From Propionibacteriaceae bacterium (GTDB lineage Bacteria > Actinomycetota > Actinomycetes > Propionibacteriales > Propionibacteriaceae): 64,000 nt of DNA. Positions 1 through 58,291 of the stretch are shown piece by piece (positions within the stretch are counted from its first letter, which is position 1; each line of letters starts with the position of its first letter). The notes under the pieces were generated by a model. The model worked only from the letters and a program-made list of their open reading frames with translations, did no database searches and was not told the DNA's origin. The translations under genes were made by a program, and so were the position numbers. The DNA is taken from positions 1 through 64,000 of the forward strand of contig JAISAO010000094.1 of assembly GCA_031266665.1 (NCBI GenBank). The letters are read 5' to 3'.

Positions 1-145
1 TGCCCAGCCAGCGAACCCGGGCACCCGACCCGACGACACGCGGACACGCCCCGTTTCGCGATCATCCCCACCTGAGGCAAGCGCCACCGTTCGCGATCAC
101 ATCAGATGAGTCTTGACGCGACCTTTAGGAGTCTCAGAGCGCTAG

Positions 146-151
146 TAGAGT
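146..151 (+). promoter_or_regulatory. -10 hexamer TAGAGT of pgi, leaderless arrangement
   Basis: TAGAGT lies 6 nt before the pgi ATG and no Shine-Dalgarno sequence is visible. Transcription starting about 7 nt after the hexamer would begin at the start codon itself. No convincing -35 is seen at normal spacing. Confidence 0.4.
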
Positions 152-157
152 CGTTCC

Positions 158-1837
158 ATGGACACCGTTGACTGCACCTCCACCGCCGCCTGGGCCGCCC
201 TCCAGGCCCATCGCCAAGCCTTCGTCCCCGACCTGCGCCAATGGTTCGCCGACGACCCCGACCGGGCCGGCCGCTGGACCCTGGAGGCCGGCGACCTGAT
301 GGTCGACTTGTCCAAGAACCTGATCACCGATCCCGTCCTGGCCGATCTGCTCGACCTGGCCCGCCAGACCGGGGTGGAGGCCCGGCGCGACGCCATGCTG
401 GCCGGGGAGCGGATCAACCGGACGGAGAACCGCTCGGTCCTGCACACCGCCCTGCGCCGGCCCCAGGAGGACACCTTGCCGGTCGAGGGCGTGGACGTGG
501 TGCCAGCAGTCCACGCCGTCTTGGAGCGGGTCTTCGCCTTCGCCCATCAGGTGCGCTCCGGGGCCTGGACCGGGGTCACCGGCCGAGCCATCGAGACCGT
601 GGTCAACATCGGCATCGGCGGCTCCGACCTGGGACCGGCCATGGTCTACGACGCCCTCCAACACCAGGCCCAGCCCGGTTTGAAGGCCCGTTTCATCTCC
701 AACGTCGACCCCTCCGACCTGGGCCAACAACTATTGGACCTGGACCCGGAGACGACTCTGTTCATTGTCGTCTCCAAGACCTTCACCACCTTGGAGACCC
801 TGACCAACGCCCGCCTGGCCCGCGCCTGGCTATGGCGCGGCCTGGCCGACCAGGGGGCGCTGGCCGACGACGACCAGGCCCGTGATCAGGCCGTCAGCCG
901 CCACTTCGTGGCCGTCTCGACGGCTCTGGACAAGGTGGCCCGGTTCGGCATCGACCCGGCCAACGCCTTCGGCTTCTGGGACTGGGTGGGCGGGCGCTAC
1001 TCGGTCGACTCGGCCGTCGGCACGATTCTGGCCGTGGTCCTGGGCCCGGAGGCCTTCCGCCAGTTCCTGGACGGCTTCCACATCATCGACCGCCACTTCG
1101 CCTCCAGCCCGCTGGAGCGCAACCTGCCCGTCCTGATGGGGCTGATCAACCTGTGGTACCGCGACTTCCTGGGGGCCGCCACCCACGCGGTCCTGCCCTA
1201 CTCGCAGTACCTGCGCCGCTTCACCGCCTACCTGCAGCAGTTGACCATGGAGTCGAACGGCAAGCGGACGCGCCTGGACGGCTCGCCGGTCCAGACCGCC
1301 ACCGGGGAGGTCTTCTGGGGCGAGCCCGGCACCAACGGACAACACGCCTTCTACCAGTTGATCCACCAGGGCACCGAGTTGGCGCCGGCCGATTTCATCG
1401 CCTTGGCCAACCCGATCTTCCCGCTGCGCGACGGCGATCAGGACGTCCACGAACTATTGCTGGCCAATTGCTTCGCCCAGACCAAGGCCCTGGCCTTCGG
1501 CAAGACCGCGGCCGAGGTGGCGGCCGAGGGCACGACGGACCCGGCCGTGCTGGCCGCCCGGATCTTCCCCGGCAACCGCCCCACCAGCACCATCTTGGCC
1601 CCCGACCTCACCCCCTCGGTCCTGGGCCAGTTGATCGCCCTGTACGAGCACATCGTCTTCGTCCAGGGGGCCGTCTGGGGCATCGACTCCTTCGACCAGT
1701 GGGGGGTCGAGCTGGGCAAGCAACTGGCCCTCCAGATCGCCCCCGCCCTGGCCGGCGACCAGGCCGCCCTTCAAGCCCAGGACGCCTCCACCCAGGGGCT
1801 GATCCGGCGCTACCAGTCCTGGCGCCGCCCGGCCTGA
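158..1837 (+). CDS. pgi: Glucose-6-phosphate isomerase
   Basis: Interconverts glucose 6-phosphate and fructose 6-phosphate in the cytoplasm. The 559-residue length is normal for the family. The signature stretch [11 protein letters not shown] (about residues 289-299) and the phosphosugar-binding [12 protein letters not shown] (about 151-162) are present, as is the C-terminal motif QWGVELGK (about 520-527). The ATG at 158 gives the expected N-terminus. It stands alone, reading away from the window edge; the double-length phosphofructokinase 8 kb further on is the next glycolytic gene. Identification is firm. Confidence 0.96.
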
Positions 1838-2017
1838 CCGCCCGCCGGTCGAGCGCCGGCCGAGACCGAGCCCTGGACGTTCGGCCGACAGCGACGCCCG
1901 TCGGTCGGACGTCGGCCGCCCGGATCGACCGCCCGGTCTGATGGTCGCCGCCCGGGCCGGCCCCGACGCCTGGCGGGGATAACCCTCAGGTTGGGCTTGA
2001 CCCCAATACCTTAGAAA

Positions 2018-2107
2018 TTCTTGGTCTTCTCCTGGGCCCGAGCCTAGGTTCGGGGCAGGCCAGGGCCGGGTCTCCTCGACACCAGCCCCCCGACCAAGAA
2101 GGAGAGG
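2018..2107 (+). promoter_or_regulatory. Structured 5' leader of the SH3/transglycosylase-like gene
   Basis: TTCTTGGTC (2018-2026) is complementary to GACCAAGAA (2092-2100), which directly abuts the ribosome-binding sequence AAGGAGAGG (2099-2107). A second segment CTTCTCCT (2026-2033) could instead pair with AGGAGAGG, and CCCGA/TCGGG at 2037-2054 forms an internal hairpin. The leader could switch between exposing and masking the ribosome site. I do not recognise a known riboswitch class. Confidence 0.35.
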
Positions 2108-2111
2108 GCCA

Positions 2112-3419
2112 GTGAAGTATTGGGCGAGAAAGTTGGCCGGGGCCGCGTTGGCGGGCCTTTTGCTGGGGGCCGCCCCCCTGGCTGTCAGCCACCAGGCCTG
2201 GGCCAACCAGGTCATCCAGGCCACCACCACGGTCAACGTCCGCTCCGGCCCCAGCACCGGCCACAGCGTCATCGGCCTGGTCTACTGGGGCCACACCATT
2301 GAGGCTGTCGGCCCGTCCAGCGACGGCTGGACCCCGGTCAATCTGAACGGGCGGACCGGCTACGTCGCCAGCCAATACTTCACCGGCGGGTCCACCAGCG
2401 CCACCACGACCACCACCACGGGCGCGGCCGGCACGGCCACCACCACGGCCGCCCTCAACGTCCGCTCCGGCCCCAGCACCGGCTACAGCCGGCTGACCAC
2501 CCTGGCCTACGGCAGCACGGTTCAGTTGACCGGCACGACCAGCGACGGCTTCGCCCAGATCGTGTTCCAATCCGGCACCGCCTGGGTCTCGACCGCCTGG
2601 TTGAGCACCACCAGCCCGGCGGCCCCGGCCCCGGCGGCCCCGGCTCCGGCCGAGACCGCGACCGTTAGCGGGCAGATGCAGACCGCCGCCGACCTCAACT
2701 TCCGCTCCGGCCCCGGGCTGGACCAGACTGTCATCCATGTCATCCCCCGGGGCACGACGGTCGACATCACCGATGTCAGCCAGAACGGCTTCCGCCAGAT
2801 CGTGCGCCAGAACCGGACCGGCTGGGTGTCGCAGCAATACCTGGTGGCCATCGCGGCGGCCGATCCCCCGGCGCCGGCGGCCCCCGCCGCCAACGGCCAG
2901 CTCTACACCACCGACTACCTCAATTTGCGCAGCCTGCCCAGCCTGCAGGGTGCGGTCGTGACCGTCCTGCCCAAGGGCACGGCCGTGACCATCACCGGGG
3001 CCAAAAACGGCCTTTGGCAAGAGATCATCTACCAAGGGGCTGTCCGCTGGGCCTCCAGCGACTACCTGGCGACCACGCCGCCGGTCGTCGTCGCGCCGCC
3101 CAGCCTGACCACCACCCCGGCCCAGGCCAAGGAGCTGGCCCGGGGCCAGGTGGCGGCCAGAGGCTGGGGCGACGACCAGTTCCAGTGCCTGGTCAGCCTG
3201 TGGGAGCGCGAGTCGAGTTGGCGCATGAACGCCGAGAACCCCTCGTCCGGGGCCTATGGCATCCCCCAGGCCTTGCCGGCCGAGAAGATGGCCTCGGCCG
3301 GGTCCGACTGGCGGACCAACGCCGCCACCCAGATCAGCTGGGGCCTGGGCTACATCGCCGGCAGCTACCAGAGCCCTTGCGGCGCTTGGCAGTTCTTCCA
3401 AGGCCACGGCTGGTACTGA
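2112..3419 (+). CDS. Secreted protein with four SH3b repeats and a C-terminal transglycosylase-like domain
   Basis: Probable secreted peptidoglycan-acting protein. A signal peptide covers about residues 1-31 (Arg/Lys start, AGLLLGAAPLAV core, ending AWA). Four bacterial SH3 repeats follow, each with an LNVRSGPS-like motif (about residues 40-95, 115-170, 190-250, 262-320), joined by Thr/Ala/Pro linkers. The last ~95 residues form a lysozyme-like fold domain with the putative catalytic Glu in WERESSW and the block GAYGIPQALP, shared almost word for word with the protein at 8600-9769. GTG start chosen because AAGGAGAGG precedes it. Substrate and cleavage type are inferred. Confidence 0.85.
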   Translation: MKYWARKLAGAALAGLLLGAAPLAVSHQAWANQVIQATTTVNVRSGPSTGHSVIGLVYWGHTIEAVGPSSDGWTPVNLNGRTGYVASQYFTGGSTSATTTTTTGAAGTATTTAALNVRSGPSTGYSRLTTLAYGSTVQLTGTTSDGFAQIVFQSGTAWVSTAWLSTTSPAAPAPAAPAPAETATVSGQMQTAADLNFRSGPGLDQTVIHVIPRGTTVDITDVSQNGFRQIVRQNRTGWVSQQYLVAIAAADPPAPAAPAANGQLYTTDYLNLRSLPSLQGAVVTVLPKGTAVTITGAKNGLWQEIIYQGAVRWASSDYLATTPPVVVAPPSLTTTPAQAKELARGQVAARGWGDDQFQCLVSLWERESSWRMNAENPSSGAYGIPQALPAEKMASAGSDWRTNAATQISWGLGYIAGSYQSPCGAWQFFQGHGWY

Positions 3420-3437
3420 GCCGACACACCGCTGATC

Positions 3438-3462
3438 GGCCGCCGCCCCACGGGGGGCGGCC
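3438..3462 (+). terminator. GC-rich hairpin after the SH3/transglycosylase-like gene
   Basis: GGCCGCCGCCCC and GGGGGCGGCC form a nearly perfect stem around a 3-nt loop, about 20 nt after the TGA at 3417-3419. There is no T-tract, which is usual for high-G+C actinobacterial terminators. Confidence 0.5.
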
Positions 3463-3520
3463 GGCGCCAGGGCCGAACGTCCGTTGAGCGCCGGCGCCGC
3501 CGTCGGCACGCCCGCCTGGG

Positions 3521-3559
3521 GCCGCTCGATAGTCGAGCATCAGTGCCTCTGGGCTCAGC
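3521..3559 (-). repeat. Family A intergenic hairpin repeat, copy 1
   Basis: On the minus strand this reads TGAGCCCAGAG then a variable part and GCTCGACTATCGAGC, a perfect 6-bp stem with a CTA loop. Its first TGA is the stop codon of the lipoprotein gene ending at 3555. Related copies are near 4174, 9767, 10116, 32491 and 53624. Confidence 0.6.
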
Positions 3560-3977
3560 TTTGGCAGCGTTCCGCGTAAAGCTGAGCCAGGCGTTGGCCG
3601 GCTTCGACCGCGCCCTCGAATTGGGACATCTGCTCCAAAACGGCGCTGTCTTGGTCGGCGAAGGACTGTCGCATCTGACTGTAGGCCTGCAGCATGGTGG
3701 CGACGGCGGCACCGTCGTCGCCCCCCAGCTGGTCGTCTTTGAGCCGCTCCAGCGCCTCCACCACCGGGGCGACGCCATCGGCCATGGCTTGCCAGTCGAC
3801 GCTCCCGTCGGCGGCGGTGAAGCGGCCGTCCGTGGCGCCGCCGACGTAACTCTCACCAGCCGCCGTCAAGTTGTCGTAGTCGCCACAGAAGTCTTGGTCA
3901 AAGCCGCAGCCGCCCAGGGCGGTGGCGGCCAGGCCGACGACGGCCACAACAGCCAGTCGGATCAAGCGGTGAGCCAT
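3555..3977 (-). CDS. Small lipoprotein of unknown function
   Basis: 140 residues with a lipoprotein signal peptide: MAHRLIRL, a hydrophobic core, then lipobox ALGGC with Cys24 as the lipidation site. The mature part is short, acidic and mostly helical-looking with no domain I recognise. Start is supported by GGAGGAG 7 nt upstream of the ATG. The stop codon coincides with the start of a family A repeat. It is predicted to sit on the outer face of the membrane; no function is claimed. Confidence 0.75.
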   Translation of the reverse strand: MAHRLIRLAVVAVVGLAATALGGCGFDQDFCGDYDNLTAAGESYVGGATDGRFTAADGSVDWQAMADGVAPVVEALERLKDDQLGGDDGAAVATMLQAYSQMRQSFADQDSAVLEQMSQFEGAVEAGQRLAQLYAERCQS

Positions 3978-4285
3978 ATCAGATTTCTCCTCCGGTTAAT
4001 TTGTCGCCCCTAGCCGAGGCGCCGTGTCAGCTTAGATCAGACCGCCAAAAGATCTGGCCCGCGCCAGAGCCGGACAACCAGATTCAGGCTTTGGCCGACA
4101 ACTTGATCAGACAATCTTCCAGACCAATCAGCGATCATCGGGTCCGGCCCCTGGCGTGGTCGGAGAACACCCCCGATCAGCGGTGGATCTGGGCTGAGCC
4201 CAGCACCGTCCAAACCGCCCAGAACCGCTCTGGCCGGGGCCGACGGGCGGGGGTGGCAGCCGACCGCCACAGGCCGGTCAATCGG
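3978..4285. other. 308-bp intergenic stretch without a gene
   Basis: This gap holds the leader of the lipoprotein gene (GGAGGAG ribosome site on the minus strand, 3985-3991), a more A/T-rich stretch around 4020-4140, and one degenerate family A repeat at 4174-4198. No open frame with family resemblance, tRNA or known RNA motif was seen. Confidence 0.5.
4174..4198 (-). repeat. Family A intergenic repeat, partial copy 2
   Basis: Minus strand reads CTCAGCCCAGATCCACCGCT, matching the 5' half of the family A consensus. It lies about 90 nt downstream of the stop codon of the RlpA-like gene, in the sense direction of that gene. The hairpin half is missing. Confidence 0.5.
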
Positions 4286-5530
4286 TCACACGATCGACCA
4301 GACGACGTTGATCTCCGGCGTGCCCAGCGGGGCGATCAGGGAGTAGGCCATGACCGTCAGGTTGAAACACTGGCCACCGCTGTAGGCCCCCCGGTCGTTG
4401 ACCCGGACCTCAACCGATTGGCCGTTGGCCAAGTTGGTGATCTGGACGATGGTGCCGAAGGGCAGGTCGCGGTGGGCGGCGGTCAGCCCCGAGGCCGCGA
4501 ACGGCTCGCCGGCGGCCGTGATCGGGCCGTCGGCCGAGGGCAGGCCCTGGTTGTAGAGACGGGCCACACAACTGTCGGCCGGCGGCGGCGACGGCTGGGC
4601 GGCGGCGGTCGGGAGCGCCGCCTGCGGGACCAGCGCCGGGGCCGGGAGGAGCGAGATCGTCGGCCGGTCGGTCTCCGGCCGGACGGGAGTCGGTGAGGCG
4701 ACCACGACTGGGGCCTGCGACGGGCTGGCGGGAGCGGCGGCGGTCGGCCGAGTGGTCGGCCCGGCGGCGGAGGGGACCGGGGCGGCGGCCGGCTGAGAGC
4801 TGGCGGCCCCCGACGGCTGGTCGCCCGCGGACTGCTCCGGGGCTGCGTCCGACGGCTGAGACGCGGCGTCCGAAGGCTGGGGCGTGGCGGCACCCGACGG
4901 CTGAGGCGTGGCGGTGGCCGAAGGCTGGGGCGTGGCGGTGGCCGACGGCTGAGGCGTGGCCGTGGCCGAGGGCTGAGGCGTGGTGGTGGCGGCGGTCGTG
5001 TCGGGGGCCGGCTGGTCGGACTGGGCCTCCCCCGCCGCCGTGGGCGGCGGGCCGATGGTCGGCCGCCAGTCGACGGCCGGCGGCGCCGCCAGCGTCGGCT
5101 TGGTCGAGGGCTGGACCCGCGGCGGCTCCGACGCGGCCGCCGTCTGGGTCGGCTCGGCGGTCGTCGCGGCACCGGACGAAGCCGTCGCGGAGCGGGCCGG
5201 CGTGGTCGGCGCGGCTCTGGTCGGGGAGTCGGTCGGGACCGCCGGGGCGGCCAGCGCCGGACGGTCCGCCGGCAGGACGACGATGACCAGGCCGTCGCGC
5301 ACCGGGTCGTCGGCCGCCGGGGAGACCACCACCTTGCCCGTCAGATCGATATTGGCGTTGTGGAGGGCGTCTTGGACCGAGCCGCGCCAGATCGACAGGC
5401 TGACGACATCGCCGGAGTCGATGATGGTGACGTGTTTGACCGCTGTCTGGGCGACGGAGACGCCGCCCAGGGCGGCCAAGCCGAGGGCCGAACTGGCGAC
5501 CAGGGTGGCCAGGTACTTCGATACCAGCAT
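4286..5530 (-). CDS. Secreted DUF348 / RlpA-like double-psi beta-barrel protein
   Basis: 414 residues, predicted exported. Residues 1-30 form a signal peptide. About 31-95 resemble one DUF348 module (VKHVTIIDSGDVVSLSIWRG). A ~220-residue Ala/Pro/Ser/Thr linker follows, including tandem 8-residue PSATATPQ units. The last ~95 residues are an RlpA-like double-psi beta-barrel with the conserved VRVNDRGAY, where the Asp and preceding His (AAHRDLPFGT) match the RlpA lytic-transglycosylase region. Start supported by GGGAG 5 nt upstream of the ATG. Role in septal or wall peptidoglycan is inferred from the family. Confidence 0.8.
   Translation of the reverse strand: MLVSKYLATLVASSALGLAALGGVSVAQTAVKHVTIIDSGDVVSLSIWRGSVQDALHNANIDLTGKVVVSPAADDPVRDGLVIVVLPADRPALAAPAVPTDSPTRAAPTTPARSATASSGAATTAEPTQTAAASEPPRVQPSTKPTLAAPPAVDWRPTIGPPPTAAGEAQSDQPAPDTTAATTTPQPSATATPQPSATATPQPSATATPQPSGAATPQPSDAASQPSDAAPEQSAGDQPSGAASSQPAAAPVPSAAGPTTRPTAAAPASPSQAPVVVASPTPVRPETDRPTISLLPAPALVPQAALPTAAAQPSPPPADSCVARLYNQGLPSADGPITAAGEPFAASGLTAAHRDLPFGTIVQITNLANGQSVEVRVNDRGAYSGGQCFNLTVMAYSLIAPLGTPEINVVWSIV
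4856..4985 (-). repeat. 24-bp tandem repeats coding PSATATPQ units
   Basis: About five imperfect 24-bp units in frame within the RlpA-like gene give the proline/threonine linker. Copy number could vary by slippage without breaking the frame. Confidence 0.7.
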
Positions 5531-5721
5531 GAGTCTCCCGGGGAAGTAGGCGGACGCACAACCGGGGTCATTTTAACGGCCCCTCCGCCCGAATCGGGGA
5601 TTGTCCGCCCGGCGTGCCGCCGACCGCTCGGCCCATCCCACCGTCGCCGCCGGGCGGGGCGGGCGTTTCAGCCACCGGTGGGCGCGACGGCGAGGAAGCC
5701 TCCGCCGATAGGCTACGGGCC

Positions 5722-6543
5722 ATGACATGGCACAGACCGGTCGCCTGCTGGCTGACCGACATGGATGGGGTCCTGGTCCACGAGGGCGAGGCCCTGCCGG
5801 GGGCGGCCGATTTCATCGCCGCCCTGGAGCGCTACGGCCGCCCTTACATCGTCTTGACGAATAACTCGATCTTCACCGCCCGGGACCTGCGGGCCCGCCT
5901 CCAACGCAGCGGCATCGACGTGCCCGAGGAGCGGATCTGGACCAGCGCCCTGGCCACGGCCGAATTCCTGGCCGACCAGGTGGAGGGCCAGACGATGTAC
6001 GTCATCGGCGAGGCCGGCTTGACCTCGGCCCTGCACGAGCGCGGCTTCGTCCTCAACGACCATGATCCGGACATCGTCGTCTTGGGCGAGACCCGGACCT
6101 ACTCCTTCGAGTCCATCGCCAAGGCCATCCGCTTCATCGACGGCGGCGCCCGTTTCATCGCCACCAACCCCGACCCGACCGGGCCCTCGACCGATGGCCC
6201 CCTGCCGGCCACCGGGGCGGTGGCCGCCCTGATCACCTCGGCCACCGGCCGCCAGCCCTACTTCGTGGGCAAGCCCAACCCCTTGATGATGCGGACGGCG
6301 CTGAACCGGATCGAGGCCCACTCGGAGACCACCGTCATGATAGGCGACCGGATGGACACCGACGTCATCTCCGGTTTGGAGGCGGGGCTTAGGACCATCC
6401 TGGTGCTGACCGGCTCGACCCAGGCCGAGGAGGTCAAGACCTTCCCCTACCGCCCCAGCCGAGTGCTGCCGTCGATCGCCGAGGTCGTGCCCCTGGTGGG
6501 GCAACTCTGCCCCAACGAGGCCGACGAACTCAGCGCCGACTGA
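5722..6543 (+). CDS. HAD-IIA family sugar-phosphatase (NagD-like)
   Basis: Cytoplasmic HAD hydrolase, 273 residues from this start. The nucleophile motif TDMDGVLVHEG (about residues 9-19) supplies Asp-x-Asp. The NagD-type cap and the C-terminal motif GDRMDTDVISGLEAGLRT are complete. The ATG at 5722 is chosen over an upstream GTG because TAGGCT stands 7 nt before it and homology begins just after. The family dephosphorylates small phosphoesters (nucleotides, sugar phosphates); substrate here is unknown. Not obviously in an operon. Confidence 0.88.
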   Translation: MTWHRPVACWLTDMDGVLVHEGEALPGAADFIAALERYGRPYIVLTNNSIFTARDLRARLQRSGIDVPEERIWTSALATAEFLADQVEGQTMYVIGEAGLTSALHERGFVLNDHDPDIVVLGETRTYSFESIAKAIRFIDGGARFIATNPDPTGPSTDGPLPATGAVAALITSATGRQPYFVGKPNPLMMRTALNRIEAHSETTVMIGDRMDTDVISGLEAGLRTILVLTGSTQAEEVKTFPYRPSRVLPSIAEVVPLVGQLCPNEADELSAD

Positions 6544-6597
6544 TCCCGCCCGCCCCGACAGCCCAGTCCGCCCCCAACGATCCCGACGACCCCGGAG

Positions 6598-7986
6598 TTA
6601 GGACTCCGGCTCGCCCGCCGGGCCGAACTGGGCCTCCGGGTTGTTGGCGAAGCAGGACAGATGTCCCTGGAAGATCAACTTGATGTTGCGCGTGGCGCCG
6701 TTGCGGTGTTTGGCCACGATCAGATCGGCCAGGTGGTCGCGCTCGGACGGGTTGGGCTTGTAGACGTCGTCCCGATGCAGCAACAAGACCAGGTCGGCGT
6801 CTTGTTCGAGTGAGCCCGACTCGCGCAGGTCGGACAAGATCGGCTTCTTATCGGCCCGGCCGTCGACCGCCCGGTTGAGCTGGGAGATGGCGATGATGGG
6901 GATGCCCAACTCCTTGGCCAGCAACTTGATCTGGCGCGAGAACTCCGACACCTCGACCTGGCGCGACTCGACCTTCTTGCCCGAGCTCATCAGCTGGATG
7001 TAGTCGATGATGACGAATCTGAGGTCGTGGCGCTGGCGCAGCCGCCGGGCCTTGGCCCGGATCTCCATCATCGTCAGATTGGGCGAGTCGTCGATGAACA
7101 GCGGCGCCCCGGAGAGCTGGGACGACACCGCCGACAGCCGGTCCCAGTCGTCCTCCAAGGCGCCGGTGCGGATGCGCTGCAGGTTGACGGCCGACTCGGC
7201 CGACAGCAGCCGCATCATGATCTCCATCGAACTCATCTCCAGCGAGAAGATGACCGTCGGCAGGCCGTGCTCGACGGCGGCCGAGCGGGCGAAGTCCATG
7301 GCCAAGGTCGACTTGCCGACGGCCGGGCGGGCGGCCACGATGATCATCTGGCCGTTGTGGAAACCATTGGTCAAGCGGTCCAACTCGGTGAACCCGGTCG
7401 GCACCCCGGCCAGGCGGCCGCCGTGGCTGGCCAGGGCCTCCATCTCGTCCCAGGCCGGCTGCAGCAACTCCCCCACCGGCTTGTAATCCTCCGCCAAGGG
7501 GTTGTCGTTGACCTCGTAGACGGCCTGCTGGGCCATGTCCACGATGTCGTCCACCTGACCCTGGGCCTGGTAGCCCAACTGGGCGATCTTGATCGAGGCC
7601 TGGACCAGCCGACGCAAGATAGCTTTCTCGCGGACGATCTCGGCGTAGTAAGAGGCGTTGGCCGCGATGGTGACCGAGCCGAGCAGGTCGTGCAGGTAGA
7701 GCGGGCCGCCCACCCGGCTGATCTCGCCCCGCCGGGTCAGCTCGGCCGCTGTCGTGATCGGGTCGGCCGGCTCGCCTTGGCCGTAGAGCTGGAGGACGGC
7801 CTCGAAGATCAACTCGTGGGCCGGGCGGTAGAAGTCGCGCCCCCGGACCAGCTCGAGCACATTGGCGATGGCGTCCTTGCTCATCAGCATGGCCCCCAAG
7901 ACCGAGCGCTCGGCCGCCAGGTCCTGGGGGGGCGTCCGGTCGACGGACTCGCCACGGTACTCGGCCAGCTCTGGCGCGACGGTCAA
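6598..7986 (-). CDS. dnaB: Replicative DNA helicase DnaB
   Basis: Hexameric ring helicase of the replication fork. The N-terminal domain (PPQDLAAERSVLGAML onward) is followed by a RecA-like SF4 motor with Walker A AARPAVGKSTLA, Walker B FVIIDYIQLM and the C-terminal SQLNRAVDGRADKKP block. No intein is visible. The reading frame is open far upstream, but a TTG at 7986 preceded by GGGAG at 5 nt fits the family N-terminus and gives 462 residues. It reads away from the DnaA-box-like cluster at 8116-8399. Confidence 0.94.
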   Translation of the reverse strand: MTVAPELAEYRGESVDRTPPQDLAAERSVLGAMLMSKDAIANVLELVRGRDFYRPAHELIFEAVLQLYGQGEPADPITTAAELTRRGEISRVGGPLYLHDLLGSVTIAANASYYAEIVREKAILRRLVQASIKIAQLGYQAQGQVDDIVDMAQQAVYEVNDNPLAEDYKPVGELLQPAWDEMEALASHGGRLAGVPTGFTELDRLTNGFHNGQMIIVAARPAVGKSTLAMDFARSAAVEHGLPTVIFSLEMSSMEIMMRLLSAESAVNLQRIRTGALEDDWDRLSAVSSQLSGAPLFIDDSPNLTMMEIRAKARRLRQRHDLRFVIIDYIQLMSSGKKVESRQVEVSEFSRQIKLLAKELGIPIIAISQLNRAVDGRADKKPILSDLRESGSLEQDADLVLLLHRDDVYKPNPSERDHLADLIVAKHRNGATRNIKLIFQGHLSCFANNPEAQFGPAGEPES

Positions 7987-8115
7987 GGTGACTCCCGATA
8001 CTCGAACAAATGCTGTCGGGGGTAAGGCTAGGGCGAGCCTGTGACATCGTCTCGGGACCACAGCGCCCCCGCGCGACCTTGAAACTACGGCCCGGCGGAG
8101 CCGCCGCCAACTCCA

Positions 8116-8399
8116 CCGTCCACAGGGGCCTGTGGACAACCGGTGGACAAGCCGCCAGGGGCTGGGGATCGACTCGTAAAGTTGTTCACAGAGGGTGTGG
8201 ACAGTTCCCCCGAAATCCTCCCCGCAGACGCTCCAATATGCGATTCACTAGGTCAAACGCGATCAACAGCGAGTCGGGGCGAAGAATTCGCGGGATTTGT
8301 CGACCCTTCGACTTGCCGCTTCCGAGACGGCCCCCAGAGGCCGTGGGGGGCCTTATATCACACTTCTGGAAGCAAGTTGTACACAGGGTAGATAACAAG
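8116..8399. other. Cluster of DnaA-box-like sequences
   Basis: Against the actinobacterial consensus TTGTCCACA: exact on the minus strand at 8131-8139; one mismatch at 8142-8150 (minus, TTGTCCACC), 8182-8190 (TTGTTCACA), 8196-8204 (minus, CTGTCCACA) and 8377-8385 (TTGTACACA); two mismatches at 8116-8124. Six sites in under 300 bp beside dnaB are unlikely by chance. Could be oriC, a DnaA-titration site or a DnaA-controlled dnaB promoter. Confidence 0.6.
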
Positions 8400-8430
8400 T
8401 TTTCTTGATTACGGCCGATACCAAGGCCGG

Positions 8431-8497
8431 TTCGGCGGGCCCATACCGGGCCTCGCCATGGCTGGTTCGGCGGTCCCATCCCGGGCTTCGCCCGGGC
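8431..8497 (+). repeat. Two ~35-bp direct repeats, second with a strong hairpin
   Basis: GGTTCGGCGGGCCCATACC and GGTTCGGCGGTCCCATCCC open two consecutive related units. The second contains CCCGGGC-TTC-GCCCGGG (8480-8496), a 7-bp stem that could act as a terminator for transcripts entering from the left. Confidence 0.55.
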
Positions 8498-8562
8498 CGC
8501 CATCCCCCCAGCGGTCCGGGGCCGGGCGGCGGTCGCCTCTCAGGCGATTCTCAGGGTCCTCT

Positions 8563-8590
8563 TTGGCTTTTCCCAGGCTATGGGTAGACT
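8563..8590 (+). promoter_or_regulatory. Promoter TTGGCT-N16-TAGACT of the RpfB-like gene
   Basis: -35 TTGGCT (8563-8568) and -10 TAGACT (8585-8590) are separated by 16 bp. The ATG at 8600 starts 9 nt after the -10, so the transcript would have almost no leader. No Shine-Dalgarno sequence is present. Confidence 0.55.
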
Positions 8591-8599
8591 GTCACAGTC

Positions 8600-9769
8600 A
8601 TGCCCCAACCCCTGACGGAAGACAGAAGCTTGCGCAAGTTCGTCGCCTTGGCCGTCGCCAGTCTGCTGGCCGGTTTGACGCTGCTGACGGCGGGTGTCAA
8701 CCTGGCCTTCGCCCAGACCGTCACCTTGTCGATCGACGGCCAGGAGCGTCCGGTCAGCGTCGTCCACGCCTCCGTGGCCGAGGTCTTGGCCCAGCAGAAC
8801 ATCCCCCTCGGCGCCCGCGACCAGGTATCCCCCGACCTCGCCTCCACCGCGCGGGCCGACAGCCCCATCATCGTCCGCCACGCCCGCCCCATCGCCCTCG
8901 ACCTGGACGGCCGCCAGGGCCTCTACTGGACCACCGCCACCTCGGTGGCCGCGGTCGTGGCCGAGCTGGGCCTGGACGACCGCCAGGTGATCTTGTCCCA
9001 CGACCCGGAGACTCCGATCGGCCTGGACGGCCTGTCCCTGAGCATCGACACCGGCAAGGACGTCACCGTCACGGCCGACGGCCAAAACTTCGCCCTGCAC
9101 TCCCCCGGCCGGGTGGCGGACGCCTTGGAGGCCGCCGGCCTGAGCTACGACGAGGACGACATCATCACCCCGGAGCCCACCACCTGGCTCAATCAAGGCC
9201 TCGCCATCAGTCTGGTCCGGGTCGAGATCACAACCGTCGAACGGGAGGTCGAGATCCCCTTCGAGACCACCGAGACCCCGGACGAGAGCCTTTACCAGGG
9301 CCGGACGACCGTCGACCAGGCCGGCCAGGCGGGCCTCCGCCACGAGACCGTCGTCCAAACCACCCATGACGGCCAACTAGTGGACGAGCAGATCACGGCC
9401 ACCACGATCGTCAGCCAGCCCGTGGCCCAGGTTCAGCGTCTTGGCGCCAAGCCCCTCCCGGTGGTGGTCAACTCCGAGGTCAAACAGATCGCCTACAACC
9501 TGGTGCTGGAGCGCGGCTGGGACGACTCCCAGTTCAACTGCTTGGACAATCTCTACCAGCGCGAGTCGGGCTGGAACCCCTACGCCGCCAACCCCTCCGG
9601 CGCCTATGGCATCCCCCAAGCCCTGCCGGGCTCCAAGATGGCTTCGGCCGGGGCCGACTGGCAGACCAACCCCCGGACTCAGATCATCTGGGGCCTGGGC
9701 TACATCGTCGGCCGTTACTCCACCCCCTGCGGCGCCTGGAGCCACTTCCAGTCCTCCGGCTGGTACTGA
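8600..9769 (+). CDS. RpfB-like secreted protein: DUF348 repeats, G5, transglycosylase-like domain
   Basis: 389 residues. Signal peptide about 1-38 (ends NLAFAQ). Three DUF348 modules run to about residue 215, then a G5-type module (VEREVEIPFETTETPDESLY onward, to about 285), then a ~95-residue lysozyme-fold domain with putative catalytic Glu in YQRESGW and the GAYGIPQALPGSKMASAG block. Architecture matches actinobacterial resuscitation-promoting/wall-remodelling proteins, but the catalytic domain is the same variant as in the 2112-3419 protein. Divergent from dnaB; promoter at 8563-8590. Enzymatic class is inferred. Confidence 0.85.
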   Translation: MPQPLTEDRSLRKFVALAVASLLAGLTLLTAGVNLAFAQTVTLSIDGQERPVSVVHASVAEVLAQQNIPLGARDQVSPDLASTARADSPIIVRHARPIALDLDGRQGLYWTTATSVAAVVAELGLDDRQVILSHDPETPIGLDGLSLSIDTGKDVTVTADGQNFALHSPGRVADALEAAGLSYDEDDIITPEPTTWLNQGLAISLVRVEITTVEREVEIPFETTETPDESLYQGRTTVDQAGQAGLRHETVVQTTHDGQLVDEQITATTIVSQPVAQVQRLGAKPLPVVVNSEVKQIAYNLVLERGWDDSQFNCLDNLYQRESGWNPYAANPSGAYGIPQALPGSKMASAGADWQTNPRTQIIWGLGYIVGRYSTPCGAWSHFQSSGWY

Positions 9770-9805
9770 GCCCCTGATCCACCGCTGCTCGACCACCGGG
9801 CGACC
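9767..9805 (+). repeat. Family A intergenic hairpin repeat, copy 3
   Basis: Begins with the TGA stop of the RpfB-like gene: TGAGCCCCTGATCCACCGCT, then GCTCGACCACCGGGCGACC. It is the same stop-codon-overlapping arrangement as copy 1. Confidence 0.6.
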
Positions 9806-9908
9806 GGCCCCCACTTCGGCCCGCTCCCGGCCGCCGGACGGACCGGCCGGGGTAGCCTGGACGGTGTCCCGGCCGCCGGCCGACCGGCCTGATCCGAAGG
9901 AGACCACC

Positions 9909-10118
9909 ATGGAGTCCAGCTACCAAGTCAGCGGCCTGACCTGCGACCACTGCGTCCGCCACGTCCTGGCCGAGGTCGAGGCCATCCCCACAGTCACCGC
10001 CGCCAGCCTGGCCCTGGCCGACGGGCGACTGAAGCTCACCAGCGCCGCCGCCCTCGACTTCGCCCTGGTGGCCCGGGCGGTGGCCGAGGCCGGCGACTAC
10101 CAGGTCGTGGCCGTCTAA
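9909..10118 (+). CDS. Heavy-metal-associated (HMA) domain protein, copper-chaperone-like
   Basis: 69 residues forming one ferredoxin-like HMA fold. The metal-binding motif LTCDHC (Cys-x-x-Cys, about residues 11-16) and the typical beta-alpha-beta pattern are present. It would bind Cu(I) or a similar ion in the cytoplasm and pass it to a P-type ATPase, but no such ATPase is in the window. GAAGGAG precedes the ATG by 6 nt. Followed by a family A repeat at its TAA stop. Confidence 0.85.
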   Translation: MESSYQVSGLTCDHCVRHVLAEVEAIPTVTAASLALADGRLKLTSAAALDFALVARAVAEAGDYQVVAV

Positions 10119-10224: not shown

Positions 10225-12495
10225 ATGCGCCCACTCCTGATTCCGCCGGAGCAGTTGAAAGCGGCGGCCGGCCGCCGGATGGCGGTTATGACCAGCGGCG
10301 GCGACGCCCAGGGTATGAACGCGGCCCTGCGCGCCGTCGTCCGAACAGCTATCAGCGCCGGAGCCGAGGCTTACGCCATCCACGAGGGTTACCAGGGGAT
10401 GATCGACGGCGGCGAAGGCATCAGCCGGCTGCGCTGGGACTCCGTGGCCGGCATCCTCAACCGTGGCGGCACCGTCATCGGCACCTTCCGCTCGGCCGAC
10501 TTCCGGGAGCGCTGGGGCCGTCTCAAGGCCTGCCGCAACCTGGTCGAGCGCGGCATCGACCGCCTTGTCGTCATCGGCGGCGACGGCTCCCTCAGCGGCC
10601 TCGACGCCTTCGCCCGGGAGTGGCCCGACCTGCTGGACGAGTTGGTCCGGCTGGGCCAGGTCCCGCCGGAGGCCCTGCGGCGCCACCCCCGGTTGGTCTT
10701 CGCCGGCCTGGTCGGCTCGATCGACAATGACCTTTGTGGCACGGACCAGACCATCGGGGCCGACTCGGCCCTGCACCGCATCCAGGACGCGGTCGACGCC
10801 GTGGCCTCGACCGCCGCCTCCCACCAGCGGACCTTCGTGGTCGAGGTGATGGGACGCCACTGCGGCTATCTGGCCCTGATGGCCGCCATCTCGGGCGGCT
10901 GCGACTACGTCCTCATCCCCGAGCGGCCGCCGGCGCCGGACTGGGAGCAGGCCATGTGCGACCAGTTGCGCCGGGGCCGGGCGGCCGGGCGGAAGGACTC
11001 CATCGTCATCTTGGCCGAGGGCGCGATCGACCGGGCGGGCAACCCGATCACCTCCGAGTACATCCGCCAGACCATCGATGAGGGCTTGGGCGAGGACGCC
11101 CGGGTGACCATCTTGGGCCACGTCCAGCGCGGCGGCACCCCCAGCGCCTACGACCGTTGGGCCTCGACCTGGCTGGGCTACTCGGCGGCGGCCCACGTCT
11201 TGACCGCCGACGGCGACGAACCCGGGCCGGTCTTCGGCTTCCACGGCTATCAGGTGATCAAGCTGCCGCTGGTCGAGGCCGTGGCCGACACCCGCCGGGT
11301 GCCGGCCCTGATCCGGGCCGGCGACTATGAGGCCGTCTTGAAGCTGCGCGGCTCGGAGTTCGAGGACGCCCTGCGTTTCTTCGACGAGTTGTCATCGCCC
11401 GAGGCCCAGGCCCGGGAGACGGCCCCCCGGGCGGCCGACGAGTCGCGCCGCCGGGTCGGCCTGATGCACAGCGGCGGCCTGGCCCCGGGGATGAACACGG
11501 CCGCCAAGGCCCTGGTTCGACTGGGTATCGCCCGAGGCCTGGACATGGTCGGGATCGAGAACGGCTTCGCCGGCCTGATCGCCGGGCACACCCGACCGCT
11601 GTCGTGGCGTGGCGTCGACGGCTGGAACCAGGAGGGCGGGGCCACCTTGGGCACCCGACGGCTGTCGCCCCGGGTGGAGGACCTCTACGCCATCGGCCGG
11701 GCGGTTGAGCAGGCCAGGCTCGACGCCCTCGTCATCATCGGCGGCTGGTCGGCTTACGAGGGGGCGGCCCTGATGCTGGCCGAGCGGGACCGCTACCCCT
11801 CGCTCCGCCTGCCGGTGGTCTGTGTCCCGGCCACCATCGACAACAACCTGCCGGCCACCCAGGTGGCCATCGGGGCGGACACGGCGCTGAATGTGGTGGT
11901 CGATGTCATCGACAAGATCAAGATGTCGGCCACGGCCTCGTCACGGGCCTTCGTGGCCGAGACCATGGGCCGCGACTGCGGCTACCTGGCCCTGATGGGG
12001 GCCCTGGCCGGCGGCGCCGAGCAGGTCTACCTGAACGAGACCGGCGTCACCCTGGCCCAGATCCAGCGCGACCTGGCCTGGATCAACCAGAGTTTTGATG
12101 AGGCGGACCGTGATTTCTTCTTGTTGGTGCGCAACGAGAACGCCAATGCCAACTACACCAGCGCGGTCCTGGCCCACCTGCTGGACGAGGCCAGCCAGGG
12201 CCGTTACGACACTCGGACGATGGTCATCGGCCACATCCAGCAAGGCGGCACACCGACCCCGGCCGACCGCATCCTGGCCACCGAGCTGACCGAGTTCGCC
12301 CTGCGAACGGTGACCGAGGACTGGGATCAGGGGGGCTGCGGCTACCGCTGTGTCGGCGTTGACACCGAGGGCATCATCGTGACCGACCTGGCCGACGCCT
12401 GGAAGTCGGTCGACCGCTCGCACCAACGCCCCAGCCAACAATGGTGGTTAGGCCTGGCCGAACTCATCGGTGTCGTCGGCCGCCAAGTGGACTAA
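10225..12495 (+). CDS. pfk: Double-length 6-phosphofructokinase (tandem fused halves)
   Basis: Phosphorylates fructose 6-phosphate in glycolysis. 756 residues comprise two PFK folds. The N half (about 18-395) has MTSGGDAQGMN, GGDGS (118-122) and SIDND (165-169) with the catalytic Asp, plus MGRHCGYLA and GHVQRGGTPSAYDR. The C half (about 410-750) keeps the fold but has GGWSAYEG in place of GGDGS and TIDNN in place of IDND, so it is probably catalytically dead and regulatory, as in eukaryotic PFK. TAGGCT 6 nt upstream of the ATG suggests a leaderless mRNA. ATP versus pyrophosphate use is not certain, but Gly-Asp-Gly favours ATP. Confidence 0.9.
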   Translation: MRPLLIPPEQLKAAAGRRMAVMTSGGDAQGMNAALRAVVRTAISAGAEAYAIHEGYQGMIDGGEGISRLRWDSVAGILNRGGTVIGTFRSADFRERWGRLKACRNLVERGIDRLVVIGGDGSLSGLDAFAREWPDLLDELVRLGQVPPEALRRHPRLVFAGLVGSIDNDLCGTDQTIGADSALHRIQDAVDAVASTAASHQRTFVVEVMGRHCGYLALMAAISGGCDYVLIPERPPAPDWEQAMCDQLRRGRAAGRKDSIVILAEGAIDRAGNPITSEYIRQTIDEGLGEDARVTILGHVQRGGTPSAYDRWASTWLGYSAAAHVLTADGDEPGPVFGFHGYQVIKLPLVEAVADTRRVPALIRAGDYEAVLKLRGSEFEDALRFFDELSSPEAQARETAPRAADESRRRVGLMHSGGLAPGMNTAAKALVRLGIARGLDMVGIENGFAGLIAGHTRPLSWRGVDGWNQEGGATLGTRRLSPRVEDLYAIGRAVEQARLDALVIIGGWSAYEGAALMLAERDRYPSLRLPVVCVPATIDNNLPATQVAIGADTALNVVVDVIDKIKMSATASSRAFVAETMGRDCGYLALMGALAGGAEQVYLNETGVTLAQIQRDLAWINQSFDEADRDFFLLVRNENANANYTSAVLAHLLDEASQGRYDTRTMVIGHIQQGGTPTPADRILATELTEFALRTVTEDWDQGGCGYRCVGVDTEGIIVTDLADAWKSVDRSHQRPSQQWWLGLAELIGVVGRQVD

Positions 12496-12525
12496 CCAGA
12501 AGGGCCAAACCCCGGACCCCAGCCC

Positions 12526-12578
12526 ACGTCATCCCGGACCCCACACCGCGTCATCCCGGACTCGGTCCAAGATGACGC
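12526..12578. repeat. Family B palindromic repeat, copy 1 (tandem)
   Basis: CGTCATCCCGGACC and CGTCATCCCGGACTCGG in tandem, then AAGATGACG, in the gap between converging pfk and RND genes. Related to copies at 27884, 47392, 52656 and 60547. It may fold as a bidirectional terminator. Confidence 0.5.
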
Positions 12579-12596
12579 CCGGCCGTTGACCAGCGG

Positions 12597-15500
12597 TCAG
12601 TCGAGCGAACTCCAGGTCGGCCAGCTGGTGGCCGGGCCGGGCTCATCGACATCGCCCGAGAATGGGCCTGGACTCCCGACATCGCTTTGCCCCGGGAACG
12701 GCGGGGCGGTGGGGGGGCTGACCGCTTCAGCGGCGGCCGGCGGCTCCGTCTCGGCGGCCGGAGGCTCTGCCGGAACCGTCTCCACGCTGGCCGGCCCGCC
12801 CGTCCTGGCGGCCGGCGGCTCCACCTCAGTCGCGGGGGCGACGGCGGCCGCCACCGGGATGGCGGCGGACAGCGCCAGCGCCTGACGGTCGGCCGGACTC
12901 AGGCCCCGGGGCGAGGCTTGGCTGAAGGGGTCGAAGGGCACGGCCACGGGCGCTGGCGCGGCCCCGGCGGGATCGGACTCGACGTCCCGGAGACTGTCGG
13001 CGGTCGGGCCTGGCTCGGGCCAGAGGGTGCGCCCGGGCGTGGCCTTGGTCCGGCCCGACGGGCCGGGCCGGGGAGCGGCCGGCCGCGACCGGACTGGTCG
13101 AGTCGCGGGTTGGGAGTCGTCCCGCCGGGCGGCGTCGGACCCGGCCAGCCAAGCCGCCCCGGCCTCAGACACACCCCCGCCCGCCCTGACCGCCTCCGCC
13201 TCGCCTGGGGGCGAGACCCCGCCACCTCTGGCCGCCCCGCCCGACGCGCCCACAGCGGTGACGCCAGTCCCAGCCCCAAGCCCATCCTCGACCGGCGCGG
13301 CCGCCCCGCCATCGGCCATCGATCCGCCCGACGAGCCCACAGCCCCAGTCTCGGCCGCCGCCATCCCTTCGACCGGCCTGGCCGCCCCGCCTCCGGGCGG
13401 GGTCGCCTCGGCCTCGGGCGCCGCCGACAGTCGCTGCCAGTCGTCCCGACGGAGGGGGGGCGGGGTGATGTCTTCGGGGGCGAATAGGGGCGGCCGCAGG
13501 CGGCCGGTGTGGTCGGCCGTCTGTTCGACCGCTCGCACCCGCTGCCACTCGGCCACCAGACGCTCGGCGGTCGACACCCCGGCCGGCTCGTCGGGCGGGA
13601 ATAGGGGTGGCCGGAAACGGCCGCCGGCCTCGCCCGGCCAGGCCGCCGGCGTGGCCGAAGCGGTCTCAGACGCGGCCGAGACTCCCCCCAGGCCGCCCGG
13701 CCGGGTCGTCTCGACGTCTCGCCCCTCTCCCCCTCCGACGGCGCCGGGCCAATCAGCCAGCTCCTGGGACCAGTCGTCCGGGGCCACATCGGCCAGGGCC
13801 GCGCCGGCCAAAGCGGTGGCGGTCGGAGCGGGGGCGATCTCCGTCCACCAATCGCCGGCCTCGTCCGACCACTCGCCAGCCACCTCGTCAAAGTCGCCGC
13901 CCGACCACCCGCCAGCGGTGGCGCCCAGAGGGCCAGCCGGCCACCGGGCCGCCTCGCCCGGGGTCCGGGCGCCGTCCCCGACCGCCCCGTCCCCGGACCG
14001 CCGGCCGGCCTCCTTGGCCGAGACCGGTTGGCCCCACTCGGCTGGGCCCTGCGGCCACCGCTCCGCCCCGGCCTGACCTGGCCACCGCTCCGCCTCGTCT
14101 CGGTCCGACCACTGCTCCGCCCCTGCCTGGACCGGCGACAGCTCCACCTCGGCCGAGCCCGGCGAGCGGCCTTGGTCCGCCCCCCGGCGCCGGGTCCAAC
14201 GCTCGTCCAGCCGGTGGAGCACGGGCACGGTCAGCCCGAGCCACAACGTGGCCGACACCAGGCCGGCCAGCAGCACCAGGGCCGTCGGCCTAAGCCACAA
14301 CGTCTGGGGGCCGAAGGCGCCCCCGGCCAGGGGCGCCAGAACCAGGACCAGACTGAGGGCCGTCAACCGGAAGGGGCGCCGATGGGCGATTCCGGCCTCG
14401 ACCGCTCGGGGCGAGGTCCGCCCCGAGCCAACCCGGTCCCGATCCGCCAGACCGGTCCAGACGATGGCCTCGGCCACCACGATCAAGGCCAGCAGCAGAC
14501 ACCCGACCCCGGCGGCCGGGCCGAGCGGCTGACCGCTCAGCCGCAGCCCCAGCACCGCCCCCAGGCCGGCGGCCGGGCTGGTCGCCAGCAATAGCAATGG
14601 CCGCCGCCAGGAGCGGGCGGCGCCGGCCCAGACCAGGTAGACCAGGCCCAGGGCCAAGGCCGCCGCCCAGCCCAGACCGCTCAGGCCAGACCCGGGCAGA
14701 CGGCCCAAACCGGCCAGCCCCACCTCGACCCCGGCCGGGAACTCCGACTGCGCCAGCACCTCGACCACTTGGCGGGCCAAGGCCTCCCCGTCCGGGCTCA
14801 GCGGGGTCAAAGCGATGACGCCGACCCGGCCGACGGCGGAGCTGGTGATGACGGCCGGCGACTGGACGGTGATGACCTCAGCCACCGCGCCCAGCGTCAC
14901 CACCCCCTCCGGGCCGACTCCCAGGGGCCAGGCCAGCAGGTCGTCCAAGGTGGTGGGCGGAACCCCCCAGGCGACCTTGACCGTGATCGGGTCGCCGCCC
15001 CGGTCGATCTGACCGATGGTGGCGGCGCCGCCGGCCGAGGCCACCAACTGGGAGATCTGACTCTCCGTCAGGCCGACGGCGGCGGCTTTGGCCCGGTCCA
15101 CCTTGACCTCGACCACGGACAAGGACGGGTCCAAGGAGTTGGTCACGCTCCCGGCCTCGGACAGGCTCTTCAAGGTCGTCTCGAGCTGGCGCGCGACCTC
15201 GTCCAGCAGTGTCTGGTCCTCGGCCGAGACGACCACGTCGACCGTGGTCGGCTGGTCCGCCAGGGAGCCGCCGGGCACAACCGGGGCGCCCAGCCGGACC
15301 ACCCCGTCCAAGGCGGCGACGATCCGCTCGGACCAGTCGGCGGCCGGCTCCACGGTCAGGGTCAGGCGGGCCGTGGCCCAGCCGGTGGCGCTACGGGAGG
15401 CCGCGTCGTCGCCGCCGGCCACGACCTGGACCCAGTCGACGCCCTCAAGCGCGGCCAGGGCCTCCCCCGCCCGCTCGGCCTCTTCGACTTGAACGGCCCG

Positions 15501-56346: not shown

Positions 56347-57105
56347 CTAAATGGTTGACTCCCGCTCGTCGGCCACTTGGCGCACCACCGCGTAGACCAC
56401 CGCCGGGGAGAAGCCACGGCGGGCCAACTGTCCGGCCAGGCGACGGCTGAAGACCTCCCGGTCGAGGGCGGTCATGGCGCGCGCCCGGCGACGGGCGAAG
56501 TCCAGCGCCACCGACCGGTCGTCGTCGGGGCGGTCGTCGTCGGACACCCGGGCGGCCCTCGCCCGCCCGGCCCCGATCCGACTGCCCTCAGACGGGCCGT
56601 CCCCCGGGGAGTCATCCCAAGGGGGATCGTCCCCGGCTCGGCCGCCCCACGACCGTCCGCCTTCGGCCGGGCCGCCCCCCGAGGGATCGTCACCAACTGG
56701 GCCGGCCCACGGCGGGGTGGCCCCGGACCGGTCTGGGCTCTCCGGGCTCAGAACCGACTGGATGATGTCGTCCTCCACCCCCCGGTCGCGCAACTCCTGA
56801 CGCAGGCGGGCGCGGGACAGGCCCTTGGAGCGGCGGCGGCCCTCGACCCATTGGCGGGCGAACTCCCGATCATCGATCAGGCCGACGGCTTGCAGACGTT
56901 CGACCACTTGGTCGATGGCCTCCCGGCCGACGCCCTGACGGGCCAGGTGGGCCACCAGGTCGGCCCGACTGCGGGCGCTGGCCTCCAGTCGGCGCAGCGC
57001 CAACTCGTGGGCCTGGGCCACCTGGGCGGCCGTCGGCCCGGGCGCGGCCGACGGGACGGCAGTCTCGGGGGACAAGGCCGCCCGACCGGCCGGCGGGGCG
57101 GTCAT
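56347..57105 (-). CDS. recX: RecX regulatory protein with a low-complexity insert
   Basis: Inhibits RecA filament extension. 252 residues; RecX repeats are split: about 30-120 ([52 protein letters not shown]) and about 195-252 ([20 protein letters not shown]), with a ~75-residue Gly/Asp/Pro/Ser insert between. Start ATG overlaps the recA stop (ATGA), so translation follows recA. Confidence 0.9.
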
Positions 57106-58148
57106 TTGGAGACGATCTCGCCGGTCTCGGGGTCTATCCCGGCTGGCGCGGCGGCCGGGGCCAACCCCACCTGGGCCAGGATCTGGGACTCGATCTGGCG
57201 GGCCGTGGCCGGGTTCTGGCGCAGGTACTGGCGGGCGTTCTCCTTGCCCTGGCCCAGTTGCTCGCTGTCGTAGGTGAACCAGGCGCCGGCCTTGCGGATG
57301 AAGCCGAACTCGACCCCCAAGTCCAGCAGGCTGCCCTCGGCCGAGATGCCCTCGCCGTAGATGATGTCGAACTCGGCCTGCTTGAAGGGCGGCGCCACCT
57401 TGTTCTTGACCACCTTGACGCGGGTGCGGTTGCCGACCGACTCGGAGCCGTCTTTCAAGGTGTCGATCCGGCGGACGTCGAGGCGGATGGAGGAGTAGAA
57501 CTTGAGCGCCCGGCCGCCCGTGGTGGTCTCGGGCGAGCCGAACATGACGCCGATCTTCTCTCGCAACTGGTTGATGAAGATGGCCGTGGTCTTGGCCCCG
57601 GCCAGGGCCCCGGCCATCTTGCGCAGGGCCTGGCTCATCAGGCGGGCTTGGAGGCCGACATGGGAGTCGCCCATCTCACCCTCGATCTCGGCCCTAGGCG
57701 TCAAGGCCGCCACCGAGTCGATGACGATCAGGGCCAGGGCGCCGGAGCGGGTGAGGGTGTCGGCGATCTCTAAGGCCTGTTCGCCGTTGTCCGGCTGGGA
57801 GACCAGCAATTGGTCGGTGTCGACGCCGAGATGTTGGGCGTACTCCGGGTCGAGGGCGTGTTCGGCGTCGATGAAGGCACAGACGCCGCCGGCCGCCTGG
57901 GCGTTGGCGATGACGTGCAGCGCCACCGTGGTCTTGCCGCTGGACTCGGGGCCGTAGATCTCGACGATCCGCCCCCGGGGCAGCCCGCCAATACCGAGGG
58001 CGATGTCGAGGGCGATGGAACCCGTGGGGATGACCTCCATCGGCTCCAGGGGCCGCTCCCCCAGTCGCATGACCGAGCCCTTGCCGTGTTGTTTCTCGAT
58101 TTGGGCCAGGGCCGCTTCCAACGCCTTGCCACGGTCGGCTGTTGCCAT
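57102..58148 (-). CDS. recA: RecA recombinase
   Basis: Strand exchange and SOS co-protease. 348 residues: Walker [17 protein letters not shown], Walker [26 protein letters not shown]2 loop [21 protein letters not shown]. No intein. AAAGGA 8 nt upstream of the ATG. An actinobacterial LexA box lies 144 bp upstream (58292-58307). Followed by overlapping recX. Confidence 0.98.
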
Positions 58149-58291
58149 GATGAGTCCTTTCTGCGCTCAACCATCGGTTAGACCGTAGGCCGAGACTGTG
58201 ACAGTGTGCCGCCCGGGCGGCCGCTTGTGCATAACGGCGACCGCTGCGGCCCGACGGTTGGGACCGAGGCGATCACACCCCAGAATCATAT

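Follow-up and report, generated by a model that had tools for sequence, protein, structure and literature searches.

A cluster of DnaA boxes directly upstream of the replicative helicase gene dnaB in a propionibacterial genome is most likely a DnaA-bound control region of the dnaB promoter, which would probably act as an activator and be combined with induction by DNA damage. Conservation and the published binding of mycobacterial DnaA give good support to a DnaA control site for dnaB, and the wider reading is based on the box array, its conservation and spacing, a promoter motif, a fused PafBC gene and the absence of an origin-type skew. The 64-kb stretch of DNA analysed (hereafter, the window) is contig C95 of a 3.28-Mb genome bin comprising 106 contigs (94% complete). 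Its dnaB gene (6598–7986, minus strand; Pfam DnaB 1.7 × 10−31, DnaB_C 5.4 × 10−102) has its nearest sequences in Propionibacteriaceae bins (81% identity to Hm464_bin142), and its likely start is the TTG at 7986–7984, which aligns with GTG or ATG starts in relatives. The divergent rpf-like gene on the other side (8600–9769, plus strand; domain matches to two DUF348, G5 and SLT) is regarded as a neighbour lying outside the regulatory element.

Five DnaA boxes, one exact and four with one mismatch, are packed in 255 bp (8131–8385) between dnaB on the minus strand and the rpf-like gene on the plus strand. The exact box TTGTCCACA (8131–8139, minus strand), a sequence reported as a high-affinity DnaA box in Mycobacterium tuberculosis and S. 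coelicolor (PMC4285127), is part of a convergent pair with a 6-bp spacer, CCGTCCACA-N6-TGTGGACAA (8116–8139), the other half of which is a plus-strand box CCGTCCACA at 8116 with two mismatches to TTGTCCACA; it also stands in tandem, at 11 bp, with the one-mismatch box TTGTCCACC (8142–8150, minus strand). Boxes at 8182 (plus strand) and 8196 (minus strand), each with one mismatch to TTGTCCACA, form a second convergent pair with a 5-bp spacer, TTGTTCACA-N5-TGTGGACAG (8182–8204), which belongs to the 14-bp spacing class and, at two mismatches, is the best palindrome match in the genome. Farther upstream, the one-mismatch box TTGTACACA (8377–8385, plus strand) converges with a weak box TTATCTACC (8387–8395, minus strand; two mismatches to TTRTCCACA), and the consensus scan returned another weak plus-strand box at 8297, again with two mismatches to TTRTCCACA. 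Between the near and far groups lies the element GTCGAAGGGTCGACAAAT (8295–8312, minus strand), kept in all five of the closest genus members aligned; it carries a short inverted repeat, and no known site was recognised in it.

It is the packing of the boxes that is unusual, their total in the 64 kb being ordinary (9 versus 6.31 expected; at least 9 in 20 of 100 shuffles), as are the matches with at most one mismatch across the 3.28-Mb genome (366 versus 375 for the reversed control). From those 366 matches, 0.028 boxes are expected per 255 bp under the chance model (P=1.5 × 10−10 for at least five) and therefore about 8 × 10−6 such clusters per genome. Most of the boxes in the window are one-mismatch variants; the exact sequence occurs 12 times genome-wide and is found in groups of at least four boxes only at the dnaB site and upstream of dnaN, where the cluster on contig C102 holds two exact boxes. 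Beside the dnaB cluster, the G+C content drops to 40–42% (8351–8425, 50-bp windows) versus approximately 70% for the whole window. The preliminary description of this DNA was accordingly accurate on its main observations, namely a real cluster of one exact, four one-mismatch and one two-mismatch (8116) boxes on both strands, an A/T-richer stretch next to it, and genes that diverge away from it, with dnaB extending to about 7986 and the DUF348/G5/SLT gene starting at 8600.

The array accompanies dnaB well beyond this genome. We fetched 80 named dnaB loci and used the 75 with at least 800 bp of upstream sequence (L015, L041, L042, L063 and L077 are shorter), counting boxes with at most one mismatch to TTRTCCACA in the 800 bp upstream of the gene; at least two boxes were present in 73 of these 75 actinobacterial loci. 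The density was 30-fold higher upstream of dnaB than in the flanks (5.0 versus 0.17 per kb; 300 boxes in 60 kb versus 217 in 1,295 kb), a comparison in which the counts are not independent because the loci are related, and in which the flanks used as control consist largely of coding sequence. Within the genus, 19 genomes were available, of which G034 (incomplete dnaB) and G038 (232 bp upstream) were left out of the dnaB alignments and promoter counts; all 17 testable genomes carry 2–5 boxes in the 1.5 kb upstream of dnaB. Some of the named loci (at least L016–L018) appear to be from the same genomes as genus loci. The palindromic arrangement TTRTCCACA-N5-TGTGGAYAA, allowing up to four mismatches, occurred 55 times upstream of dnaB (42 loci) and four times elsewhere in the 75 loci; it was not found at this threshold in 33 of the 75, including the Nocardia loci tested (the Nocardia comparison and some other named-locus counts covered 70 of the 80 loci, and one further count 56), and the form with a 5-bp spacer was also absent in the same-genus genomes G030, G032 and G033. 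Across the 19 same-genus genomes the unit was matched with at most three mismatches 53 times, versus 17 in the reversed control, and those lying upstream of dnaB comprised all six matches with at most one mismatch and 10 of the 15 with two.

The gene on the far side of the array varies, being rpf-like in the window and a small HMA-like protein gene (judged by eye) in G040, so that the array goes with dnaB. An assignment of the array to the rpf-like neighbour was rejected, as the boxes keep to dnaB and the rpf-like gene is not always adjacent or on the upstream side; a related gene was found near dnaB in 14 of 17 genus loci, searched in 1.5-kb flanks only, and in 20 of 80 named loci, searched up to 10 kb upstream.

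The spacing of the boxes in the 75 loci is also restricted. Convergent pairs peak at 14 bp (27 pairs) with smaller rises at 25 and 35 bp, and the preferred distance of tandem pairs is 11 bp (20 pairs), 21–22 and 31–33 bp being raised as well, while just three divergent pairs lie within 40 bp. Distances close to a single helical turn, or to several turns, would place the boxes on one face of the DNA, and the spacing thus suggests proteins stacked along one side of the helix. DnaA would bind the convergent pairs (14 bp from start to start) and the tandem boxes (11 bp), occupying the near boxes about 130–220 bp upstream of the dnaB start as well as the far boxes at about 390–410 bp; the bound complex would then modulate, and probably activate, the dnaB promoter about 40–60 bp before the start codon.

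A block conserved at that position in the alignment of the closest relatives contains the putative promoter ATGTCACAG-N8-TAGCCT (8025–8047, minus strand), which resembles the RecA-NDp/PafBC type. The RecA-NDp consensus is TTGTCRGTG-N8-TAGNNT, and scored against this form the window sequence has three mismatches among 13 fixed positions. With up to three mismatches allowed, the motif is present in 12 of the 17 genus loci and 43 of the 75 named ones (for the latter, 3.0 were expected), the remaining five and 32 loci falling short of this threshold. The common form in the source genome is TGTCACAG, in contrast to the consensus TTGTCRGTG, and the stricter pattern TGTCACAG-N8-TANNNT occurs five times in that genome and not once in the reversed control; it precedes dnaB, recA, a RadA-like gene (so called on the basis of its sequence and of zinc-ribbon/AAA matches), the exonuclease V gamma (recC) gene and one gene without a Pfam match. 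The recA gene is itself located in the window (57102–58148, minus strand; motif at 58182–58203), and the gene without a Pfam match, at C42:106322 (L283), has the repair-type promoter motif common to dnaB, recA, radA and recC. The source genome furthermore encodes PafBC as a single fused protein, in which HTH_PafC, two WYL stretches and WCX were recognised. The RecA-NDp motif is the route by which PafBC activates damage genes (PMC6789036), and dnaB of M. tuberculosis is induced by damage, partly via PafBC (PMC8151990). Since the window promoter resembles this type, dnaB would respond both to DnaA, and with it the state of initiation, and to DNA damage; we infer DnaA occupancy in the source organism, the sign of the regulation and its dependence on PafBC.

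The preliminary description had proposed either an origin of replication or a DnaA control site. An origin, chromosomal or second, has in its favour boxes in both orientations together with the A/T-richer stretch (8351–8425), a candidate DNA unwinding element, but we consider it very improbable, and oriC was rejected on the GC skew of the window, of same-genus contigs and of two relatives. In the window the skew is −0.032 to the left of the cluster and −0.028 to the right, and around dnaB in the same-genus genome G030 it is +0.027 and +0.018, with no change of sign in either case, whereas it switches sign at dnaN in three other members of the genus (−0.086 to +0.039 in G044, −0.040 to +0.025 in G032 and −0.034 to +0.062 in G040). 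In P. massiliense (G019), the cumulative skew over the stretch from 2.99 Mb reaches its lowest value at 3.379 Mb, at a distance of 20 kb to dnaN and of 343 kb to dnaB. In oral taxon 192 (G021), six of six samples after dnaN had a positive skew, and of the eight taken between dnaB and dnaN seven were negative. Both relatives, in which the two genes are 306–364 kb apart, thus show the flip near dnaN and none at dnaB; the skew sampling of T. oleiagri was noisy and was left out of this evidence. The actinobacterial oriC usually lies next to dnaA and dnaN, and the cluster in the window adjoins neither: as the preliminary description had stated, both genes are missing from the window, and they were located on contig C102 (dnaA, 11407–13011; dnaN, 6792–7952) together with recF (5383–6735), with a separate box cluster directly upstream of dnaN. 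What stands of the earlier proposal is therefore the control site, as boxes are clustered directly upstream of dnaB and kept there in relatives, and mycobacterial DnaA binds at the equivalent place.

The dnaN region of the source genome has two further peculiarities: three ABC-transporter frames (C102, L014, 8459–11270) stand between dnaA and the boxes upstream of dnaN, so that the two genes are separated in an unusual way, and a large amidase/RHS-repeat frame (3–4358, minus strand) follows recF, where gyrB is the usual gene. Among 28 other genomes, eight (G015, G022, G014, G020, G024, G009, G004 and G002) lack any box matching TTGTCCACA with one mismatch or none in the 1.5 kb that precede dnaN, and in four of 16 genus genomes (G031, with just 174 bp, G043, G029 and G044) no TTRTCCACA box lies within 1 kb of dnaN; these box-less regions weaken the generalization that clusters at dnaN are always denser than those at dnaB. 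Several Tessaracoccus and other relatives (dnaN loci L095–L124) have no near-consensus box within 1.5 kb of dnaN and several upstream of dnaB.

The array could alternatively titrate DnaA, or control its nucleotide state, in a datA- or DARS-like manner that acts on oriC, its place at dnaB being fortuitous. The datA and DARS sites are conserved in spacing and carry multiple boxes outside oriC (PMC4585315), the array equals the dnaN-upstream cluster of its own genome in box richness, and in some genomes the far groups seem to be beyond the range of simple promoter control. Against chance placement, 55 of the 59 palindromes counted across the 75 loci belong to the region upstream of dnaB, and the array stays at this gene both when the adjoining gene changes, as in G040, and when the distance to dnaN varies (306–421 kb in G021, G019 and G022), so that we regard this alternative as unlikely. 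It is very improbable, too, that the inverted repeats act as hairpins in RNA or bind a regulator other than DnaA. Read from the sequence, the convergent pair with the 5-bp spacer could indeed fold into a 9-bp RNA hairpin, but the arms retain the DnaA-box sequence itself, the phased tandem boxes, which are unable to form a hairpin, are equally frequent, and an Rfam search of 6500–10000 returned nothing at E values up to 1; the region upstream of dnaB is, moreover, bound by DnaA in mycobacteria (PMC7738170). A broader speculation, to which we give little weight, combines functions: the array may be an ancient actinobacterial replication-control centre that ties helicase supply to DnaA and to the PafBC damage signal and, in trans, holds or resets DnaA for oriC as datA and DARS do.

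With control of dnaB by DnaA as the preferred reading, the site is no longer a candidate for an odd origin and becomes a DnaA target conserved beside the gene of the helicase. Given its fixed spacing and its conservation across actinobacterial families, one can test directly if the initiator governs how much of its own helicase is made, and if the signals for damage and initiation converge on one promoter. The kind of site is already known; the literature searched showed no instance of the conserved paired layout outside mycobacteria, and it yielded no paper on a dnaB-upstream cluster in Propionibacteriaceae. An earlier description may exist in a 2006 Journal of Bacteriology paper that reportedly deals with DnaA-box clusters of Streptomyces.

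The closest counterpart is the mycobacterial dnaB site, which shares the gene, the position and the actinobacterial DnaA system. Affinity-purification sequencing of M. tuberculosis DnaA yielded five top regions, one of them upstream of dnaB (Rv0057 region), ChIP-seq in M. smegmatis yielded the homologous five regions, and the DnaA variant I282T of M. tuberculosis combined weaker binding at the dnaB site with under-expression of dnaB (PMC7738170). What the present analysis adds is the palindromic, helically phased layout measured in other families; in the available portion of the mycobacterial report, a two-box palindrome is described at Rv0010c–Rv0011c, not at dnaB (PMC7738170). In a different phylum, dnaB of Caulobacter crescentus has predicted DnaA boxes upstream and is counted among the genes of the DnaA regulon (Hottes et al. 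2005, cited through PMC8203912), a likeness drawn on the gene, its boxes and its regulon. The E. coli sites datA, DARS1 and DARS2 (PMC4585315) resemble the array in carrying several DnaA boxes at conserved spacing outside oriC; the comparison covered the boxes, and the array in the window differs in being tied to the dnaB promoter. Finally, the putative dnaB promoter resembles mycobacterial PafBC-dependent RecA-NDp promoters (PMC6789036, PMC8151990) in that a sequence containing TGTC is followed, after 8 bp, by TANNNT, in that recA and other repair genes share this motif, and in that PafBC is encoded, as a fused protein; the difference is the common form TGTCACAG in place of TTGTCRGTG.
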